From the NCBI GenBank assembly GCA_016209865.1, contig JACQVL010000343.1, forward strand, positions 1 to 17,087: 17,087 bases of DNA, written 5' to 3'. The notes below the pieces were generated by a model. The model did no database searches, was not told the origin of the DNA, and saw only the letters and a program-made list of their open reading frames with translations. Shown one piece after another: positions 6,070-17,087 of the stretch (its first letter is position 1; each line of letters begins with the position of its first letter). Both the position numbers and the translations under genes were made by a program. This DNA is from Candidatus Latescibacterota bacterium (GTDB taxonomy: Bacteria > JAAXHH01 > JACQVL01).

Positions 6070-6097
6070 CGTCACTCGTCACTGGTCACTTGTCACT
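6070..6097. repeat. Heptamer array (unit NGTCACT), at the stop codon of the ABC ATPase-DtxR gene
   Basis: Four tandem heptamers CGTCACT, CGTCACT, GGTCACT, TGTCACT. On the minus strand the array begins inside the TAG stop codon (6096-6098) of the ATPase gene and fills part of the gap to the ROK kinase gene. Confidence 0.85.
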
Positions 6098-7196
6098 ACT
6101 TTTCGCTCTCTTCCCTCTCCGCCGGACAACACTGGCCCGGCGGGATCGGCTTCCCATGCGGACAGACACGCGGATGGTTGAGGAAAACGCAGATCTGGTC
6201 GGCCATCTCCGGGTTGAGCGCGTGCTCGAACCGGCAGGCATTAGCCGCCATCGCGCCGTTGCTCATGTGAAATAGGTCCCGGAAGAGAGTTTCGGCCAGA
6301 CGCATCCGGCGGACGACGTCCCGTGCCCGTCCCTCCCCTTCGGGCGTGAGGGCGAGTGCGCCGTCCGCCCAGACGGTCAGTCCGCGTGTGTGCAGCCGGT
6401 CGAGCAGTCCGTCCATATCGACGACGTCGGGAATCCTGACCGCCTGTCGCGTCGCCGGCTTCCCGTCCTCATGCAGCAGCCAGATGAACTCGAGGGCCAT
6501 CTCGATATCCTCTTCCGTCCATCGGGCAAAATACTGGAAGTCGGAAATCCGGCCATGCTCGAGCGCGATCAGCCGGTCGGCTAACCGTCCGACCGACGAG
6601 TCGTGCGTGACCATGACGATGGTATGGCCCGCCCGGTGAAGTTCCCGGAACAGCGTGAGCACGATGTCCTCATTCTTCTCATCTAAATTGCCCGTCGGTT
6701 CATCCGCCAGGATGATGCGCGGCTGGTTGATGAGCGCCCGGGCGATGCACACTCGCTGCTGTTCCCCGCCGGAGAGCTGGCGCGGGAGGTGGCTGATCCG
6801 GTCGCGCAGGCCGACTCGCATGAGCGCGTCGCGTGCCTCCGCTTCGTCCGCCATGCTGTGGTAGTACTGGGCGATCATCACGTTTTCCAGGGCGGTCAGG
6901 TAGGGGATCAGGTGAAATTGCTGAAAGACCAGACCGACGTGCTCCCGCCGGAACCGGGTGATGTCTTTCGCGTTCAGCGTCCCGATGTCCGTGCCATCGA
7001 TGAGCACCCGGCCTGACGTCGGGCGGTCGAGACAGCCGATGAGGTTGAGCAGGGTCGTTTTCCCGGAACCGGACGGCCCCATGATCGAGACCCATTCCCC
7101 CGCGTCGATCGCCAGAGAAACCTGGTCGAGGGCGAGGACGTTCCCGCCGTATTGTTTCGTGATGTGATCGAGGGTGATAAGCGCCATAGTATTCAT
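6096..7196 (-). CDS. ABC transporter ATPase (MacB/LolD type) fused to a DtxR/MntR-like iron-sensor domain
   Basis: 366 residues from the proposed ATG. Residues 5-220 form a complete LolD/MacB-type ATPase: Walker A GPSGSGKT (40-47), FQQF Q-loop (91-94), signature LSGGEQQ (141-147), Walker B IILADEP (161-167), H-loop H198. Residues about 225-357 resemble a DtxR-family repressor: a winged-helix region (EDIEMALEFIWLL ... LTPEGEGRA), the dimerisation segment VVRRMRLAETL, ACRFEH and the closing CPHGKPIPPGQCC. DtxR primary-site ligands appear kept (M233 for Met10, C321, E324, H325); of the ancillary site E302 is kept but His79 and His98 are replaced by M298 and A317. It presumably powers the two permeases encoded just upstream, with iron binding gating ATPase activity or DNA binding (inference). 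No good Shine-Dalgarno; ATG at 7187 or an upstream extension through the hairpin are alternatives. Confidence 0.9.
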   Translation of the reverse strand: MNTMALITLDHITKQYGGNVLALDQVSLAIDAGEWVSIMGPSGSGKTTLLNLIGCLDRPTSGRVLIDGTDIGTLNAKDITRFRREHVGLVFQQFHLIPYLTALENVMIAQYYHSMADEAEARDALMRVGLRDRISHLPRQLSGGEQQRVCIARALINQPRIILADEPTGNLDEKNEDIVLTLFRELHRAGHTIVMVTHDSSVGRLADRLIALEHGRISDFQYFARWTEEDIEMALEFIWLLHEDGKPATRQAVRIPDVVDMDGLLDRLHTRGLTVWADGALALTPEGEGRARDVVRRMRLAETLFRDLFHMSNGAMAANACRFEHALNPEMADQICVFLNHPRVCPHGKPIPPGQCCPAEREESEK

Positions 7197-7201
7197 CGTT
7201 G

Positions 7202-7263
7202 GGGCGAAGCATTCACCGATGATAGTCGGGAAACCCTCAAGCCTAAGGGTGAATGCTTCGCCC
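7202..7263. repeat. Inverted repeat, 16-bp perfect stem with 30-base loop
   Basis: GGGCGAAGCATTCACC (7202-7217) is perfectly complementary to 7248-7263. It lies in the 106-base gap between the second permease gene and the ATPase gene. On the plus strand it is followed by a short T-run (7269-7274), but genes here are on the minus strand, where no T-run follows. It may be an interspersed palindrome (GGGCGAAGCATTC-type) that also acts as an mRNA-stabilising or processing hairpin. Confidence 0.8.
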
Positions 7264-7302: not shown

Positions 7303-8445
7303 TCATTCCCCCCGCAGTATCACCGCCGGGTCGATGGCCGTCGCCCGCCTGACGGGGATGAGACCGGCGAGGACTGACAGTCCGACCGCCAGGCCGATGA
7401 CGGCCGGAAAGACGAGGGGACGGATCGTCAACGACGACCCGAACGCGCTCTGCTCGATCGCCTGGCAGAGGAGCAGTCCCAGGCCGCATCCGGCGAGGCC
7501 GCCCCCAAGCCCGATCGTCCCGACCTCCCCTAACAGGAGCAAGCTGATGCTCCGGTTTTCCGCGCCCATCGCCTTCAGCAGGCCGATCTCCCGTTGTCGT
7601 TCGACGACGGCGGCGGTCATCGTCGTCATCACGCACAGGAGCACCGCGACGAGCGTCACTGACGTCACGACCCCGACCAGCACGGTGATCCGGCGGAGCA
7701 GCCGTCCCTCGGACGCGGCGACACGCCGGATCGGCTGCGCCCGTGCAGCGGGCGTCTGCGCGACGATGTCCCGTCCGACCGCCAACACCCGGTCGTTCCC
7801 CCCGATGACGCTGGCGGCGACCAGGCTGATCCGTTCAGGCCGGTTCAATAGGGGTTGCGCGAACCGGAGGGGGACAAACATCTGCTCGTCCTCCGACGCC
7901 CCGGTCGCCACGACCCCGGCGACCTGAAATTCCTGAGACCGGCCTTCATCGCCCGCTTCAGCGATAAATCGATCACCGGGACGGAGGCCAAGCCGCCGGG
8001 CGGCGTTCGTCCCGACCATCGCGTCCGCGTCGGTATCCCGGCCCCAGCGTCCGGTGACGCCCCAGTACGGGTACACCCGCCGGGCCTGATCGAACCGCGT
8101 CCCGGCCAGCGCTACTGTCACCCCGTTGACCTGAACGACGCCGTAGAGATACGGCACGTACCCGACAAGCGCCCCGCGCTGGTCAAGCCGATGGAAGGCC
8201 GCCAGGAGGCGGTCGGGCAGGTCTTCCTGTACCGCACCCGTCGACGGTTGGGTCTCTCCCGAATCCGGGACGATGGCCAGGTTCGCCCCGTACGCTCGCA
8301 ACTCCCGCGTCATCTTCTCGGTCATGTCGAGTGAGACGCCGACGAGCGCGGTGACGAGCGCGGCGCCGACCATCACCGCCACGAAGGGGATGGCCGTCCG
8401 GCTTTTGCGTTCTGTGAGGGAGCGAAGGAGGAGATGGAGATACAT
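7303..8445 (-). CDS. ABC transporter permease, MacB/FtsX type (second of two)
   Basis: 380 residues. MacB/FtsX-like integral membrane protein: one N-terminal transmembrane helix after MYLHLLLRSLTERKSRT, a large extracytoplasmic MacB-core-like domain (about residues 45-250), then three C-terminal helices. The cytoplasmic coupling segment MTAAVVERQREIGLLKAMGA after the second helix is typical of FtsX proteins. It shares the segment RELRAYGANL right after helix 1 with the preceding permease, so the pair looks like an old duplication forming a heterodimer. The start is ATG at 8443-8445, two bases after the stop of permease 1, implying translational coupling; a longer in-frame reading to 9258 only runs through that upstream gene in the wrong frame. 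By analogy with FTR1/P19-ABC clusters it should export or move something linked to periplasmic iron handling. Confidence 0.88.
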   Translation of the reverse strand: MYLHLLLRSLTERKSRTAIPFVAVMVGAALVTALVGVSLDMTEKMTRELRAYGANLAIVPDSGETQPSTGAVQEDLPDRLLAAFHRLDQRGALVGYVPYLYGVVQVNGVTVALAGTRFDQARRVYPYWGVTGRWGRDTDADAMVGTNAARRLGLRPGDRFIAEAGDEGRSQEFQVAGVVATGASEDEQMFVPLRFAQPLLNRPERISLVAASVIGGNDRVLAVGRDIVAQTPAARAQPIRRVAASEGRLLRRITVLVGVVTSVTLVAVLLCVMTTMTAAVVERQREIGLLKAMGAENRSISLLLLGEVGTIGLGGGLAGCGLGLLLCQAIEQSAFGSSLTIRPLVFPAVIGLAVGLSVLAGLIPVRRATAIDPAVILRGE

Positions 8446-8447
8446 CG

Positions 8448-9722
8448 TTATCGTTGCAATGTCATCACTGGATCGATCCGTAACGCGCGCCGGACCGGCA
8501 ACGCGCTCCCCGCCAGGGTCATCAACACCGCCGCAATCAACGACAACGGGATGACTGTCCCGTTGAACAGGATCGCAGACCCGAACACACTCCGTCCGAT
8601 CACCTGCGCCAGGCCGAACCCCAGCCCATACCCGACCAGCCCGCCGAGGAGTCCGATGATCAGCGCCTCGGCAAGAAAGAGGCCGGCGACCCCCCAGTTC
8701 CCTGCCCCGATCGCCTTGAGCAGTCCGATCTCGGTCCGGCGTTCCAGGACGGTCGTCGTCATCGTGCTCATCACACCCAGTCCCGATACGAAGAGGGCAG
8801 CGAGGGTGATGGCGAGCATCAGGCCCTGCACCCGCGAGAGGATCGCCCCTTCCGATTGGGCGATCTGCCGGATGGGCTTCGCCTCGGTGCCCGGGAGCGC
8901 CTCCTGGAGCTGCAGGGCGATCGACCCGACGTACGGAGTGCAGTACCACCGGTCGTATTCCTCGCGCGTCATCTCTTTGGGGTTGCGCCGGGCTAAGGCG
9001 TCGTCCGGGTTGGTGAGGGCGCTGACGTAGACACGGTTCACCCCGCCCGGCCGGCCGGTGAGCCGCTGGACGACGTTGAGCTGGGTGAATGCCTGCGCGT
9101 CTTCCGGCCCGCCCGTCGTGACGATGCCGACGACCCGGAGTGAGGCGGTCACCGTGTTGTAGCGGACGGCGAGGCGGTCGCCGATGCGCAGCCGAAGCCG
9201 GCGGGCGAGGTCGGCTCCGACCATCCCCTCCGGGTCGGCCGCCCCATCCCGGCTCCATGCCCCGCGGACCGACCAGAACGGGCTGACCGCGCGCAGGCCC
9301 GTGGTCATCGTCGTCCCGTCGCTCAACACGACCGGTTTCTCGAACCAGGCCCCGGTCAAGGTGATCCGGCGGCTCGTCCCGGCGACCTCGACGACGGCGG
9401 AGAGCGTCGGCGCGAACCCCAGGATGTTGTGCCGCCAGAACACATCCTTGATGCGCGGGAGCTGTCCCTCCTCGATCAGGCCCTGACCGGCGATCGGACG
9501 GTATTCGACGCCGGGGACCTCGACGGGCAGCTCTGCTTCCTCGGGGACGACGACCAGGTTCGCGCCGTACGCCCGGAGCTCACGGCCCACCTTATCGCCG
9601 ACACTCATCGCCACGTTGACGAGCGCGGTGGCGACCGCAGTCCCTAAGGCGACCGCCGTCATGGCGATCACTTTGCGCCGTTTTCCCCGGCTGAACGATT
9701 CACGGACGATGCGGAGGAACAT
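8448..9722 (-). CDS. ABC transporter permease, MacB/FtsX type (first of two)
   Basis: 424 residues, with the same topology as its neighbour: an N-terminal helix (VIAMTAVALGTAVATALVNV) after a basic leader MFLRIVRESFSRGKRRK, a large extracytoplasmic domain to about residue 300, and three C-terminal helices ending in ALPVRRALRIDPVMTLQR. The FtsX coupling signature MSTMTTTVLERRTEIGLLKA is present. It also carries RELRAYGANLVVVPEEAELP after helix 1. It begins five bases after the FTR1-DUF2318 gene stop and ends two bases before permease 2, a tight operon. It probably forms a heterodimer with permease 2 and uses the ATPase encoded downstream. MacB family proteins couple cytoplasmic ATP hydrolysis to periplasmic work rather than simple transport, which would fit moving iron or electrons' partner proteins at FTR1 (inference). 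Confidence 0.9.
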   Translation of the reverse strand: MFLRIVRESFSRGKRRKVIAMTAVALGTAVATALVNVAMSVGDKVGRELRAYGANLVVVPEEAELPVEVPGVEYRPIAGQGLIEEGQLPRIKDVFWRHNILGFAPTLSAVVEVAGTSRRITLTGAWFEKPVVLSDGTTMTTGLRAVSPFWSVRGAWSRDGAADPEGMVGADLARRLRLRIGDRLAVRYNTVTASLRVVGIVTTGGPEDAQAFTQLNVVQRLTGRPGGVNRVYVSALTNPDDALARRNPKEMTREEYDRWYCTPYVGSIALQLQEALPGTEAKPIRQIAQSEGAILSRVQGLMLAITLAALFVSGLGVMSTMTTTVLERRTEIGLLKAIGAGNWGVAGLFLAEALIIGLLGGLVGYGLGFGLAQVIGRSVFGSAILFNGTVIPLSLIAAVLMTLAGSALPVRRALRIDPVMTLQR

Positions 9723-9727
9723 AAGAC

Positions 9728-11005
9728 CTACCTGAACATCCCCACCCGCTCTTTGAGGTCGGCGATCTTGATGACCACCGTATCCCCGATGACCGTCGCC
9801 GGGAGGGCGATCGGGTTACAGCCGCCGCCTTTGCCGATCGTCGGGACGTAGATACGGGCGGTGCAGTGGGCACAGATGACTTCCCGGCCGTCCTGGTAGT
9901 AACCGTGGCTCCCACAGATCTCACAGGCATCGAAAGCTGTCCCGATCTGGCCGGGCCCGGTTTGAATCAACAGAAACCGCACCGTCGTCCCGTCGATCAG
10001 ACAGCCGAAGCGATGCAGGTTGCCGTCCCGCGTCTGAGCCGCCGGGATGTGTACGACTCCGTCCATCGCGGTCACGGACACGGCCGGGGAGAGTTGGACC
10101 GGAGCGTCCGAGTAGACGTAGTCCAGGCCGAGCAGGAGGATGACGATCGACGCAGCGCTCCCGGCCAGCATCCGCCATCGCCGGTTGGCCTGGACCTGGG
10201 CGAGGAACTTGCGTCGCTCCGCTCCGGTTGCGGTCGACGGGGTCTCGTCCTGCACGGCGCTCTGGCCGGGGACGAGCAGGGCGATGACCGGCAGGGCGAC
10301 GACCGCTAAGATGAACAACAAGTTCTGCCGGACGATCGGGCCGACCAGCGCCATCTCACGCTCGGATGACGGCAGGATGCGTGCCTCAGAGAGTTCATGG
10401 AGGCTGTTAATCAGCAACTGGACGACTAATACCGCCAGGACGATCCCGGTGATCTTGAAGAACCGGCCCAGGTCGATGCGCATGCTGCCTTTCATGAAGG
10501 AAACGCCGAAGAGCGCCGCTAAGGTCAACCCGATCCCCGCCCCGAACAGGCTCATCACCCCGCTGGTGCTCAAGGACACCACGCTCAGGAAGACGACCGT
10601 CTCGATGCCCTCTCGGAAGATCATCAGGAAGGTAAACCCCAGCAGGCCGATGCCATACCGGCCTGCTGGAGCAGCCTGAGCCCCGGCGTGCGCCGCGAGT
10701 GTCTCGACTTTCTCCTCGATCGCCAGCTTGAGACCGTTGGACGTCCGCCACATCCACGCCATCATCGACCCGACGAAGAGGGCGGAGAGCAGCATCGTGA
10801 TGCCCTCGAACGCTTCCTCACTCACGGCCAACCGCTGAAACAGGGCAGCGCCGGCCACGCTGGCGATGACCGCCAGCACCACCCCCCAGACGACGAACCG
10901 GATCAGGCGTTCCCGTCCCGTCTTCCGGAGGTAGGCGGCCACGATGCCGATGACGATGGCCGCTTCCACCCCTTCACGCAACGTGATGATCAACGATTCG
11001 AGCAT
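9728..11005 (-). CDS. FTR1 family high-affinity iron permease fused to a DUF2318 (CxxC) domain
   Basis: 425 residues from ATG at 11003-11005. Residues 1-250 are an FTR1/EfeU-type permease with about seven transmembrane helices and two REXXE iron-binding motifs, REGVE (10-14) and REGIE (131-135). After a linker and another helix (281-297), residues 300-425 form a DUF2318-type extracytoplasmic domain with CEIC (361-364), CAHC (378-381) and C396 in TIGKGGGCNPI, probably binding a metal or redox centre. In Campylobacter and E. coli fet clusters FTR1 and the DUF2318 protein are separate genes; here they are one. The likely job is taking iron across the inner membrane with redox help. It is the first gene of the operon, behind a sigma70-like promoter (11120-11148) and a palindrome. 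An ATG 17 codons upstream is in frame but lies in the palindrome; the chosen start gives the usual MLESLIITLREG opening. Confidence 0.92.
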   Translation of the reverse strand: MLESLIITLREGVEAAIVIGIVAAYLRKTGRERLIRFVVWGVVLAVIASVAGAALFQRLAVSEEAFEGITMLLSALFVGSMMAWMWRTSNGLKLAIEEKVETLAAHAGAQAAPAGRYGIGLLGFTFLMIFREGIETVVFLSVVSLSTSGVMSLFGAGIGLTLAALFGVSFMKGSMRIDLGRFFKITGIVLAVLVVQLLINSLHELSEARILPSSEREMALVGPIVRQNLLFILAVVALPVIALLVPGQSAVQDETPSTATGAERRKFLAQVQANRRWRMLAGSAASIVILLLGLDYVYSDAPVQLSPAVSVTAMDGVVHIPAAQTRDGNLHRFGCLIDGTTVRFLLIQTGPGQIGTAFDACEICGSHGYYQDGREVICAHCTARIYVPTIGKGGGCNPIALPATVIGDTVVIKIADLKERVGMFR

Positions 11006-11039: not shown

Positions 11040-11068
11040 TGTAGGGGCGGAGTCACTCCGCCCCTACA
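11040..11068. repeat. Perfect palindrome, 14-bp arms (TGTAGGGGCGGAGT), in the FTR1 operon leader
   Basis: TGTAGGGGCGGAGT, one central C, then its exact reverse complement. GTAGGGGC...GCCCCTAC palindromes occur as dispersed intergenic elements in many bacteria. Here it is in the 5' leader of the iron operon, 34 bases upstream of the FTR1 start, where the RNA hairpin could influence translation or early termination. Confidence 0.9.
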
Positions 11069-11119: not shown

Positions 11120-11148
11120 AATATAGGCTTCTCTCAGGGTTCGGTCAA
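11120..11148 (-). promoter_or_regulatory. Sigma70-type promoter for the iron operon (TTGACC-17-TATATT)
   Basis: On the minus strand TTGACC (11148-11143), a 17-base spacer and TATATT (11125-11120). It would start transcription near 11113, about 108 bases before the FTR1 ATG. I see no Fur or DtxR consensus box overlapping it. Confidence 0.6.
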
Positions 11149-13641: not shown

Positions 13642-14145
13642 ATGGCGGACACAACCAAAGAAGGGGTTTCTCGTCGTGGCTTCCTGTCCTGGCTAGGGCT
13701 GGCCTGGACGGCGTTCTCGGCAGCGATGGCGGCGAGCGGGATCGCTCTGGCGCGGTTCATGTTCCCCAACGTCTTGTTCGAACCGCCGATGTCCTTCAAG
13801 GTCGGTCGTCCTGAGGAATTCGCCCTGGGGGTCGACGAACGGTTCAAGCCGCAAGGGGTCTGGATCGTCAAGACGACGAAGGAAATCTTTGCGCTCAGCA
13901 CGGTCTGCACCCATCTGGGGTGTACGCCCAACTGGCTCTCGGCTGAACAGAAATTTAAATGCCCGTGCCATGGGAGCGGGTACTACGTGAGCGGGGTCAA
14001 CTTCGAGGGACCCACCCCGCGGCCACTGGAACGGTTCGCCGTCTTCGTCGCGGACGATGGCCAGGTCGTCGTGGATAAAAACCGGATCTTCCAGTATGAG
14101 AAGGGACAGTGGACCGATCCCCAGTCGCATATCCTGCTGTCGTAA
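13642..14145 (+). CDS. Rieske [2Fe-2S] subunit of a quinol:cytochrome c reductase
   Basis: 167 residues. The N-terminus has a twin-arginine motif (SRRGFLSWLGL, from residue 10) and one membrane helix (about 16-38), as in Rieske subunits anchored by an uncleaved Tat signal. Cluster-binding boxes are CTHLGC (89-94; C89, H91) and CPCHGSGY (107-114; C107, H110), with C94 and C109 able to form the stabilising disulfide. The protein is short, like b6f-type and menaquinol Rieske subunits. It takes the first electron from quinol at the Qo site. A good Shine-Dalgarno (GAGGGAGAAG) precedes ATG. It is the first gene of a tight operon: 21 bases to the cytochrome b gene, then subunit IV and a cytochrome. 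Confidence 0.95.
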   Translation: MADTTKEGVSRRGFLSWLGLAWTAFSAAMAASGIALARFMFPNVLFEPPMSFKVGRPEEFALGVDERFKPQGVWIVKTTKEIFALSTVCTHLGCTPNWLSAEQKFKCPCHGSGYYVSGVNFEGPTPRPLERFAVFVADDGQVVVDKNRIFQYEKGQWTDPQSHILLS

Positions 14146-14166
14146 GAACGGAACGCGGAGGAGACT

Positions 14167-14952
14167 ATGCCAGGTTTGAAGGATGTTATGGAATCCGTCA
14201 AAGAATCGCAGGTCTGGAAGTCGGTCGCCCGCAACCCGCTACCGTCGAACGCCAGGACACGAGCCTTGGCGGTGTTGAATAATGTCTTCCTTCATCTCCA
14301 CCCGGTACGGGCCCCGCAATCGGGGATTCGGCTCAAGTACACCTGGTGTATGGGGGGGCTGACCTTCTTCGTCTTCCTCGTCGAGGTCATCACCGGCATT
14401 CTCCTGATGTTCTACTACCGTCCGACCGTCGAGTTTGCGTACGCGGACATCATCGACCTTCGCGAGCAGGCGCCGTTGGGGCTGATGCGGGAGCTCCATC
14501 GTTGGGGGGCGCATACGATGGTCATCACCGTCTGGCTGCACATGATGCGGGTGTTCATGACCGGCGCGTACAAGCCGCCCCGCGAGTTCAACTGGGTGGT
14601 GGGGGTCGTCCTCCTGCTCCTCACCCTCCTGCTGAGTTTTACCGGCTATCTGCTGCCCTGGGATCAACTGGCCATGTGGGCGGTGACGGTGGGGACGAAC
14701 ATGGCGCGCGCGACCCCGTTCGTCGGCTATGAAGGGCCAGGGGCTGCGCTCTTAAAATTGGGGGATATCAATCTCGTGCACTCCGCGGACGACGTCCGCT
14801 TTGCCCTGTTAGCGGGCCGGTTTGTCGGCGAAGCGACCCTCCTCCGGTTCTACGTGCTGCACTGTGTCGCCATCCCGTTCGTGGCGACGATCCTGATGGC
14901 GGTCCATTTCTGGCGCATCCGGAAGGACGGCGGCATCTCTGGCCCGATGTAG
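14167..14952 (+). CDS. petB: Cytochrome b6-like subunit (N-terminal half of cytochrome b)
   Basis: 261 residues, four transmembrane helices. Haem ligands are H111 and H125 in helix B ([16 protein letters not shown]) and H232 and H247 in helix D ([18 protein letters not shown]); the 14- and 15-residue spacings are those of cytochrome b6. C61 in [12 protein letters not shown] aligns with the cysteine of b6 (YCLGG) that covalently holds the extra haem c_i/c_n in b6f and in some menaquinol complexes. [14 protein letters not shown] is also b6-like. It binds haems b_L and b_H of the quinol-oxidising complex in the inner membrane. ATG follows GGAGGAGACT. An N-terminal cytoplasmic tail of about 50 residues precedes helix A. 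It ends in TAG, 12 bases before the subunit-IV gene. Confidence 0.92.
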
Positions 14953-14964
14953 GCGGAGGGAGTT

Positions 14965-16032
14965 ATGATTAAGATCATCATCAACTGGTTAGCCCTACCC
15001 TACATGTACGTATCGATCGCGATCGTCCTGTTCTTCCTCACCATCCGGTCGCGCAAGCTCTGGACGGGGAAAGCCGGGGGGCTGCTCCTCCTGGGGTCGA
15101 TCCTCTTCCTCGCGTACAGTCTGACGGATGAACACTTCAGAGGCCTGGTCACCCGTCCAGATAACGTGCCCATCGTCATGCTGTTGTTCGCGGTCGGGTT
15201 TTTCGTCTGGTTTGCCCTCAAACAGGCGCACGAGAACGATGAACGTGTGATGCAGGGAAAGCCGTTGGACGAAGTCGCATGGAAAGATAAGGTCTTCGTC
15301 TGGCCGAACCTGGTCTACACCGAACTGATCTGTATGGTCGTCGCCACGATCGTCCTCGTCGTGTGGTCGATCTACATCCCCGCCCCGCTCGAGCAGCCCG
15401 CCAACCCGTCGAGCTCGCCCAACCCGTCAAAGGCGCCCTGGTATTTCCTCGGCCTCCAGGAGATGCTCGTCTACTTCGACCCCTGGATCGCCGGGGTGCT
15501 GCTCCCCGGGTTCATCATCCTCGGCCTGATGGCCACCCCGTACATCGATAAAAACCCGAAAGGCAACGGGTACTATACGTTCAAAGAGCGGAAGTTTGCG
15601 ATCACGATCTACCTCTTCGGGTTCTCTATTATGTGGGTGTTGCTCATCATCAACGGCACGTTCTTGCGCGGCCCCAACTGGAACTTCTTCGGCCCGTATG
15701 AGCCCTGGGACATCCATAAGCTCGTCCCGTTGAACAACGTCAACCTCTCTGAGTTCATCTACGTGAAATTCCTGGGCACGGGACTCCCGAAGCACTGGTT
15801 CTTCCGAGAAATCTTCGGGATTGCCCTGGTGGTCGGGTATTTTGCGGTCGGTCACTGGTACTTAGCGAAGAAGCTGCTCAAGCGGTTCCACGACCTGATG
15901 GGGCCGGTGCGATTCCATCTCATGGCGTTCTTGCTGTTGGTGATGGTCGCTACGATCGCCAAGATGTACCTGCGATGGACGATGAACCTGAAATACATCA
16001 TCGGGATCTCGGAATTCTTCTTCAATATCTAA
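14965..16032 (+). CDS. petD: Subunit IV-like (C-terminal cytochrome b) protein, enlarged
   Basis: 355 residues, more than twice the 160 of b6f subunit IV. Residues 10-85 form an added N-terminal region with about three transmembrane helices (YVSIAIVLFFLTI; GLLLLGSILFLAY; IVMLLFAVGFFVWF). From about 105 on it follows the family: WPNLVYTELICMVV..., then the Qo-loop NPSKAPWYFLGLQE, where PEWY is replaced by APWY (157-160), so the proton-accepting glutamate is absent. Two or three further helices extend the C-terminus, ending in ISEFFFNI. It completes the quinol site with the cytochrome b6-like subunit. Such PEWY replacements are known from menaquinol-using complexes, so a menaquinol substrate is likely (inference). 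Start ATG follows GGAGGGAG. The stop is followed at once by a heptamer array (16034-16068). Confidence 0.88.
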   Translation: MIKIIINWLALPYMYVSIAIVLFFLTIRSRKLWTGKAGGLLLLGSILFLAYSLTDEHFRGLVTRPDNVPIVMLLFAVGFFVWFALKQAHENDERVMQGKPLDEVAWKDKVFVWPNLVYTELICMVVATIVLVVWSIYIPAPLEQPANPSSSPNPSKAPWYFLGLQEMLVYFDPWIAGVLLPGFIILGLMATPYIDKNPKGNGYYTFKERKFAITIYLFGFSIMWVLLIINGTFLRGPNWNFFGPYEPWDIHKLVPLNNVNLSEFIYVKFLGTGLPKHWFFREIFGIALVVGYFAVGHWYLAKKLLKRFHDLMGPVRFHLMAFLLLVMVATIAKMYLRWTMNLKYIIGISEFFFNI

Positions 16033-16033
16033 A

Positions 16034-16068
16034 CGGTCGACACCGATCGACCACCGATCACTGATAGA
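16034..16068. repeat. Heptamer array after the subunit-IV gene stop
   Basis: About five heptamers: CGGTCGA, CACCGAT, CGACCAC, CGATCAC, TGATAGA. It starts one base after the TAA stop (16030-16032). Bases 16053-16064 (ACCGATCACTGA) match 7275-7286 exactly. It sits immediately before the Shine-Dalgarno of the cytochrome gene. Confidence 0.7.
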
Positions 16069-16069
16069 C

Positions 16070-16077
16070 GAGGGAGG
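16070..16077 (+). promoter_or_regulatory. Shine-Dalgarno GAGGGAGG deciding the TTG start of the cytochrome gene
   Basis: GAGGGAGG with a six-base gap to TTG at 16084-16086. It shows that the following open frame, which has no good early ATG, is translated. Confidence 0.75.
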
Positions 16078-16083
16078 CCGGTC

Positions 16084-17087
16084 TTGAACAAACAGAATGG
16101 AGACGGAGAGGATCTTTATAATATCAAGAAACTCAACGCCACCTTTGCCATCTCCAGCCTCATCGTGTTGATCGCCATCGTCGGCATGGTGTGGGCCGAC
16201 TACGCGCGTGAATGGAAGGTCTGGCAGCGAGCGTTCAACGACCTGGAGATCGCGCGAACCGAGCGGGCGATCGCGCAGGCGGACAGCGCGATCGACAAGA
16301 CGCAGCTTCAGCAGCTCGAAGATTCCCTCAAGGTGGTCAACGACCAGCTCACTCAGCGGCAGAGCGACATCGACGCGGCCCAGAAGCGCGTCAACTCCCT
16401 GGCCGCGCAGTGGTATAAGATCGATCAGGTTGCCCGGTTTGCCAAAGCGACGTACGATGCGCAGAAGTACGAGTATGAGAAAGCCGCTCAGATCGACAGC
16501 GTCGGCGCGAAGAAGAGACGAGAACAGCTCGACCAATCACTCGCCCGGCTGACCGACCTGAATGAGCAGGTCAAACAGATCGCCGCACAGCGCGACAGCG
16601 CGGAAGTCTCGTTGACCCAGTTGACGGCGGACCGGGAGCAGATTCAGAAGCGGATCGCCGACCTCGAGCTGTCCCGGACTCGCCTGGAGAAAAAACTGGC
16701 GAGCATCAGCCGTTTCAACCTGAGCACCCTGCTCAGCAAGGATGCGGGCCGGATTCTCAGCGGACTGATCAATGACTTCTTCCGCAATCAACCGCTCGTC
16801 GACTTTATCAACCCGTCCCTCAAGATTCAACAGGTCGTGGTCGATAACATCAGGGAAAACGTCAACTTCTCGACCATCCCCAAAGTCGATCGCTGCATGA
16901 CTTGCCATCTGGCGATCGAAAAGCCGGGCTACGAGGAGCAACAGCCATTCAAGTCTCACCCCAACCTCGCCCTCTTCCTGGATGCCCGCTCTCCCCATCC
17001 GATGGCCAAATTCGGCTGCACCGCCTGCCATCTGGGCCGCGGCCGGGGGACGACGTTCGCCAGCGTCGCCCACACCCCCCACGACGC
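16084..17087 (+). CDS. Membrane-anchored coiled-coil c-type cytochrome (partial, runs off right edge)
   Basis: At least 334 codons, open to the window edge, starting with TTG behind an ideal Shine-Dalgarno. Order: cytoplasmic tail (about 1-18), one transmembrane helix (about 21-38, TFAISSLIVLIAIVGMVW), a long heptad-rich Gln/Asp/Arg stretch (about 45-205) that should form a coiled coil outside the membrane, a short linker (NPSLKIQQVVVDNIREN), and then haem c sites CMTCH (271-275) and CTACH (312-316), with further histidines (SHPN, SPHP) as possible distal ligands. More CxxCH motifs probably follow outside the window. The gene follows the subunit-IV gene by 51 bases and likely encodes the electron-accepting cytochrome of this bc/b6f-like complex, holding its haems away from the membrane on the coiled coil (inference). 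An ATG-only gene search would miss it. Confidence 0.9.
   Translation, partial: MNKQNGDGEDLYNIKKLNATFAISSLIVLIAIVGMVWADYAREWKVWQRAFNDLEIARTERAIAQADSAIDKTQLQQLEDSLKVVNDQLTQRQSDIDAAQKRVNSLAAQWYKIDQVARFAKATYDAQKYEYEKAAQIDSVGAKKRREQLDQSLARLTDLNEQVKQIAAQRDSAEVSLTQLTADREQIQKRIADLELSRTRLEKKLASISRFNLSTLLSKDAGRILSGLINDFFRNQPLVDFINPSLKIQQVVVDNIRENVNFSTIPKVDRCMTCHLAIEKPGYEEQQPFKSHPNLALFLDARSPHPMAKFGCTACHLGRGRGTTFASVAHTPHD

Follow-up and report, generated by a model that had tools for sequence, protein, structure and literature searches.

We describe here an ABC transporter ATPase that carries at its C-terminus a module derived from the iron-dependent repressors DtxR and IdeR. The gene lies in a 17,087-nucleotide contig of a Candidatus Latescibacterota bacterium (this whole stretch is referred to below as the window) and belongs to an operon of the Fet type; no description of an ATPase-DtxR fusion was found in the literature searched. 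Our favored interpretation, to which we assign a probability of roughly 0.6, is that the module has lost its DNA-reading element and that the protein serves as a cytoplasmic iron sensor mounted on the transporter. The occurrence of an iron-sensing repressor domain on an ATPase in several little-known bacterial lineages, apparently without its DNA-reading part, raises the possibility that cellular iron controls the transporter itself rather than its gene.

The fused gene and its operon

The frame of the fused gene is open from 7283 to 6096 on the (-) strand, and the start codon assumed in an earlier note on this DNA is the ATG at 7196. Both Pfam domains fall within this single frame: ABC_tran (PF00005) with 129 bits against a cut-off of 25, and Fe_dep_repr_C (PF02742) with 77.6 bits (E 7e-22) against a cut-off of 27, as had been claimed when the protein was described as a LolD/MacB-type ATPase followed in frame by a DtxR-like module. 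The catalytic motifs of the ATPase are complete, namely Walker A (GPSGSGKT), Q-loop (FQQ), signature (LSGGEQQR), Walker B (ILADEP) and H-loop (VTH), and the nearest solved structures are the ATPases of MacB, LolD and FtsE, with Z about 26. The coordinates of the features are collected in Table 1.

Table 1. Features of the fused gene, its product and the surrounding operon in the window
Feature	Position	Strand	Remarks
Fused gene: FetD-type ABC ATPase with DtxR/IdeR-derived module	6096..7196	(-)	366 aa
ABC ATPase domain	6540..7196	(-)	PF00005, 129 bits; MacB/LolD/FtsE ATPases in structure search
DtxR/IdeR-derived module, residues 220-366	6096..6539	(-)	PF02742; AF2 model; IdeR/DtxR best match
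Met233, DtxR Met10 equivalent	6498..6500	(-)	Unconserved; Glu in 11/14 fused members
Degenerate HTH region, residues 244-260	6417..6467	(-)	Helix 2 of DtxR HTH unformed in model
C321-x2-E324-H325, equivalents of DtxR Cys102/Glu105/His106	6222..6236	(-)	Residue alignment
C336-x4-H341-x3-C345-P-H-G-x2-I-P-x-G-x-C356-C357	6126..6191	(-)	Absent from DtxR/IdeR
MacB/FtsX-type permease 2, FetC-like	7303..8511	(-)	Start uncertain
MacB/FtsX-type permease 1, FetB-like	8448..9722	(-)	
FTR1 iron permease fused to FtrD-like (DUF2318) domain	9728..11005	(-)	Likely ATG 11005; ORF opens 11056
Operon promoter, sigma-70-like	11120..11148	(-)	TTGACC-17-TATATT; 1 found vs 0.5 expected by chance

The genes of the operon are all on the (-) strand, in the order FTR1-FtrD, permease, permease and fused ATPase. 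By its position next to FTR1, FtrD and a pair of MacB/FtsX permeases, the MacB/LolD-type ATPase of the window qualifies as a Fet (FTR1-linked) ABC ATPase. The operon resembles the iron-linked fetMP-fetABCDEF locus of Campylobacter jejuni in combining an FTR1 permease, a DUF2318 (FtrD) component, two ABC permeases and a single ATPase (PMC10783030). In C. jejuni, FetD is the ATPase, and the fetA to fetD mutants are each poor growers under iron limitation (PMC10783030). The operon in the window differs from that of C. jejuni in that FTR1 and FtrD form one gene, the ATPase bears the DtxR-derived module, and neither a P19/FetP-like nor a thioredoxin gene was seen adjoining it.

Three other features of the surroundings were observed. 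A perfect 14-bp inverted repeat (TGTAGGGGCGGAGT/ACTCCGCCCCTACA) lies at 11040-11068, between the operon promoter and FTR1, and occurs as a single copy in the genome. At 7202-7263, close upstream of the ATPase start, a 30-bp loop separates the arms of a perfect 16-bp inverted repeat; the arm sequence recurs at two further places in the genome (contigs C47 and C179), and hence the repeat is probably a small dispersed element. On the opposite strand, 13642-17087 (+) encodes a Rieske protein, pieces of cytochrome b and a protein with CxxCH motifs, i.e., a respiratory bc-type operon.

Distribution of the fusion

The fused gene was identified in 14 genomes from at least three phylum-level groups. 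Besides the window, the carriers are two genomes of one phylum (G371 and G394), ten from the Ca. Eisenbacteria phylum, among which G442 belongs to another family, and a record with the title Acidobacteria gp13; none of the 15 other genomes examined from the phylum of the window has the fusion. A contig scan with an alignment of four module sequences detected such genes, the window module as a single query giving no match. Since 14 distinct fused genes occur in separate genomes, the fusion is genuine and not an assembly artefact. The earlier note had proposed to check whether the fusion always sits beside FTR1, and this proved to be so: all 14 fused genes are the last of an FTR1-FtrD/permease/permease/ATPase operon.

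A broad sample of 384 genomes contained seven FTR1-FtrD genes (E 1e-40), four with a fused ATPase and three (in G046, G063 and G072) with an unfused one; the module is therefore dispensable to such operons, which counts against the reading favored here. In the ATPase tree the FTR1-linked sequences group in one clade (support 0.94), and fused and unfused members are intermixed, with weak support. One common origin for the fused modules is not rejected (p-AU 0.19), nor does this result establish it.

Fold and closest relatives of the module

When the full-protein model was submitted to the structure search only ABC ATPases were returned, the ATPase domain filling the list, and the module was therefore modeled alone. 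The resulting AF2 model, built from 12 sequences, has a pLDDT of 89.8 and finds its best structural matches in IdeR and DtxR (TM-score 0.75-0.80; Z 18.7 with IdeR 2it0; 2.0 A over 138 residues), so that the C-terminal part is indeed modeled with the winged helix and dimerization fold of DtxR. In a phmmer comparison, the segment from the first helix to the dimerization segment aligned with IdeR 1b1b (E 6e-12) and DtxR. The description of the module as matching DtxR from the wing to the dimerization segment was thus accurate, though the helix-turn-helix (HTH) before the wing is degenerate. By fold the module belongs to the DtxR/IdeR family, with the metal-binding and dimerization domain (Fe_dep_repr_C) present, and it has in common with these repressors the equivalents of C102, E105 and H106 (in most members) and the PIP motif. 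It departs from them in its degenerate HTH, in having mostly Glu at the Met10 position, in an extra Cys/His motif, in the absence of an SH3 or FeoA domain from the fused form, and in the attached ATPase.

The closest relatives are stand-alone proteins in which this module, its Cys/His motif and degenerate HTH included, is joined to a FeoA domain instead of an ATPase. Such proteins were observed directly behind feoB in many lineages (loci L102, L104, L107-L110 and L195-L214), and no description of them was found in the literature searched. A total of 29 stand-alone loci were examined, two of which are cut by a contig end; feoB lies directly upstream on the same strand in 23 of the 27 that could be judged and is missing from that position in four. 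A stand-alone copy (E 1e-9) was not found in the three distant fusion genomes of the 384-genome sample. With FeoA-bearing relatives behind feoB on the one hand and the Fet ATPase fusion on the other, the module is linked to two iron transporters of unrelated kinds. We consider the chances about even that it has given up DNA binding and become a portable, transporter-mounted iron sensor, equipped with its own Cys/His centre and serving two unrelated uptake machines, FeoB through FeoA and the Fet ATPase by fusion.

A related gene was noted on contig C230 of the genome to which the window belongs (locus L004, 7387-8406 (-)). Its product, of 339 aa, has a single apparent membrane helix at the N-terminus, DtxR dimerization and FeoA domains and no PF01325 match. 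Next to the gene lie a DtxR-FeoA gene of the canonical kind and a split feoB, with G-domain and permease in separate genes. The 339-aa protein is possibly a second membrane-mounted DtxR module.

Metal-site residues and an additional Cys/His motif

The residue assignments made earlier were borne out by the alignment, in which M233, C321, E324, H325, M298 and A317 correspond to DtxR positions 10, 102, 105, 106, 79 and 98, respectively. The window protein itself has all four equivalents of the primary site (Met10, Cys102, Glu105 and His106). Across the family, conservation of these ligands holds for C321, E324 and H325, all three of which are kept in 12 of the 14 fused proteins and in 29/29 stand-alone proteins (41/43 modules); it does not hold for M233, which is peculiar to this genome, the Met10 position being Glu in 11 fused members, Asn in two and Met in the window alone. 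Glu is thus the family residue, and an acidic residue at this position is a likeness to MntR, the site of the Porphyromonas gingivalis protein consisting of an acidic residue together with Cys, Glu and His and binding both Mn and Fe (PMC4805248). Taken position by position among the 14 fused proteins, the equivalents of Cys102, Glu105 and His106 are kept in 12, 13 and 12, and the two members that lack parts of the site (L101 and L183) indicate that DtxR-type sensing is not universal. As for the ancillary site, His79 and His98 had rightly been described as replaced in the window (M298 and A317), and both positions vary among the fused members (R9/H4/M1 and E9/A2/H2/D1, respectively); the Glu83 equivalent is invariant in 43/43 modules, and the set His79/Glu83/His98 of DtxR is not present as such.

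A feature overlooked in the earlier note is the Cys/His motif listed in Table 1. Its five residues, C336, H341, C345, C356 and C357, are kept in 14/14 fused proteins, including L101 and L183 with their broken C/E/H site; in this count CP-x9-CC was the selection rule, so that its invariance is by construction, and C336 and H341 lie outside the rule. CP-x9-CC was also present in 29/29 loci chosen by score alone, which are free of this bias. As judged from the alignment, the motif is more conserved among the fused members than the DtxR-type site.

This conservation raises the question of whether the Cys/His motif is the working centre, either as a Zn or Fe-S site that senses oxygen or redox state, or as a purely structural metal site in a module that acts as a dimerization clamp. 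The retention of all five residues in members whose C/E/H site is broken, and of CP-x9-CC in the score-picked loci, speaks for such a reading, for which FeoC, a protein with a winged-helix fold, offers a precedent. FeoC, a small iron-sulfur protein whose Fe-S cluster is oxygen-sensitive, regulates FeoB post-translationally (PMC10710835). However, a purely structural Cys motif leaves unexplained why C/E/H is kept in 41/43 modules, and we regard this alternative to the DtxR-type site as rather unlikely.

The DNA-reading half of the module

The earlier note left two options: iron could gate the ATPase directly, or the ATPase could moonlight as the repressor of its own operon. The second option is disfavored by several features of the 43 modules (14 fused and 29 stand-alone). 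None reached the cut-off for the N-terminal HTH domain PF01325, three giving very weak matches (best E 0.059), while the DtxR encoded on contig C230 of the same genome, used as a positive control, scored 73 bits. In the AF2 model, residues 244-260 are non-helical yet confidently placed (pLDDT 90), i.e., helix 2 of the HTH is missing. DtxR contacts DNA through Arg27, Ala28, Arg29, Thr40, Ser42, Arg47, Arg50 and Arg60 (PMC7762939). The Ser/Thr-x-Ser/Thr pattern of the recognition helix (DtxR 40 and 42) is lost in 14/14 fused and nearly all stand-alone proteins and present in 8/8 canonical controls; the remaining contact positions are uninformative, being variable among the canonical controls as well. 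With PF01325 below the cut-off, helix 2 missing and the Ser/Thr motif lost, DNA reading of the DtxR kind appears unlikely, on the evidence of sequence and model, and so does the action of the module as a repressor of its own operon.

A variant of the repressor reading holds that the ATPase, or a C-terminal part freed by proteolysis, binds the promoter of the operon under iron-replete conditions. Its precedent is YtgC-YtgR of Chlamydia, a metal permease bearing a DtxR-like repressor which, once released by cleavage, autoregulates its operon (PMC6504234), and the perfect 14-bp inverted repeat between the promoter and FTR1, unique in the genome, also speaks for it. Both YtgCR and the fused gene comprise a metal-transporter subunit with a DtxR-like domain at the C-terminus; in YtgCR, however, the partner is a permease and the released YtgR binds DNA (PMC6504234), whereas here the partner is an ATPase and the DNA-reading part is degenerate, which sets the window gene apart from fusions of the YtgCR type. 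Moreover, a scan of the window for the DtxR/IdeR consensus box gave 12/19 as its best match, at a place away from the promoter, with the proviso that a box of the module's own, if any, may differ. Together with the degenerate HTH, this makes the promoter-binding variant quite improbable. Repression is possible elsewhere, given that the genome encodes the separate DtxR with an intact HTH and that in G371 a fur gene (PF01475, 103 bits; L094, 2222-2665 (+)) closely precedes the fused operon; Fur was not found in the genome to which the window belongs, which is 83% complete.

That the module is merely a decayed relic, a repressor domain preserved by the fusion without a present function, might be read from the degenerate HTH and the C/E/H site broken in two members, but is highly improbable given that at least three phylum-level groups have retained the fusion and that the module keeps many invariant columns.

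Proposed mechanism

The two options of the earlier note are thus narrowed to one, metal gating of the ATPase, which we infer to be the best reading of the putative iron sensor mounted on the transporter. As the operon encodes two different permeases but a single ATPase, each complex would contain two ATPase copies and hence two modules side by side, which could pair in the manner of DtxR dimerization domains. Binding of Fe(II) or Mn, or occupancy of the Cys/His motif by a metal or an Fe-S cluster, may alter this pairing and so keep the ATPases apart or together, by which means the MacB-type ABC engine that supports FTR1 would be switched by cytoplasmic iron.

MacB-type (type VII) ABC transporters are generally not importers, so substrate transinhibition is an analogy only. 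MetNI and ModABC are controlled by dimerizing C-terminal domains of their ATPases that bind the substrate (PMC10710835). Like the C2 domain of MetN and the corresponding domain of ModC (PMC10710835), the module would be a C-terminal, dimerizing, substrate-sensing part of an ABC ATPase that acts on the transporter; unlike it, these domains have other folds and belong to importers with binding proteins, as opposed to a MacB-type ABC beside an FTR1 permease. The ABC ATPases with an AAA_assoc_C domain (PF09821; ORFs of 426-473 aa) likewise carry a winged-helix-like C-terminal domain, and were considered as the same thing. They were set aside, as the profile comparison gave a match to the wing alone (37 columns, probability 62%) and the other C-terminal half is different.

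Implications

A repressor domain has apparently been reused as an allosteric part of transporters. Little is understood of how bacteria throttle iron uptake at the level of the proteins themselves, and a sensor fused to the ATPase makes testable both this question and that of the substrate and job of the Fet ABC transporter; the stand-alone form linked to feoB opens the same test for Feo. If the proposed role is true, iron would exert a direct post-translational feedback on its own uptake.
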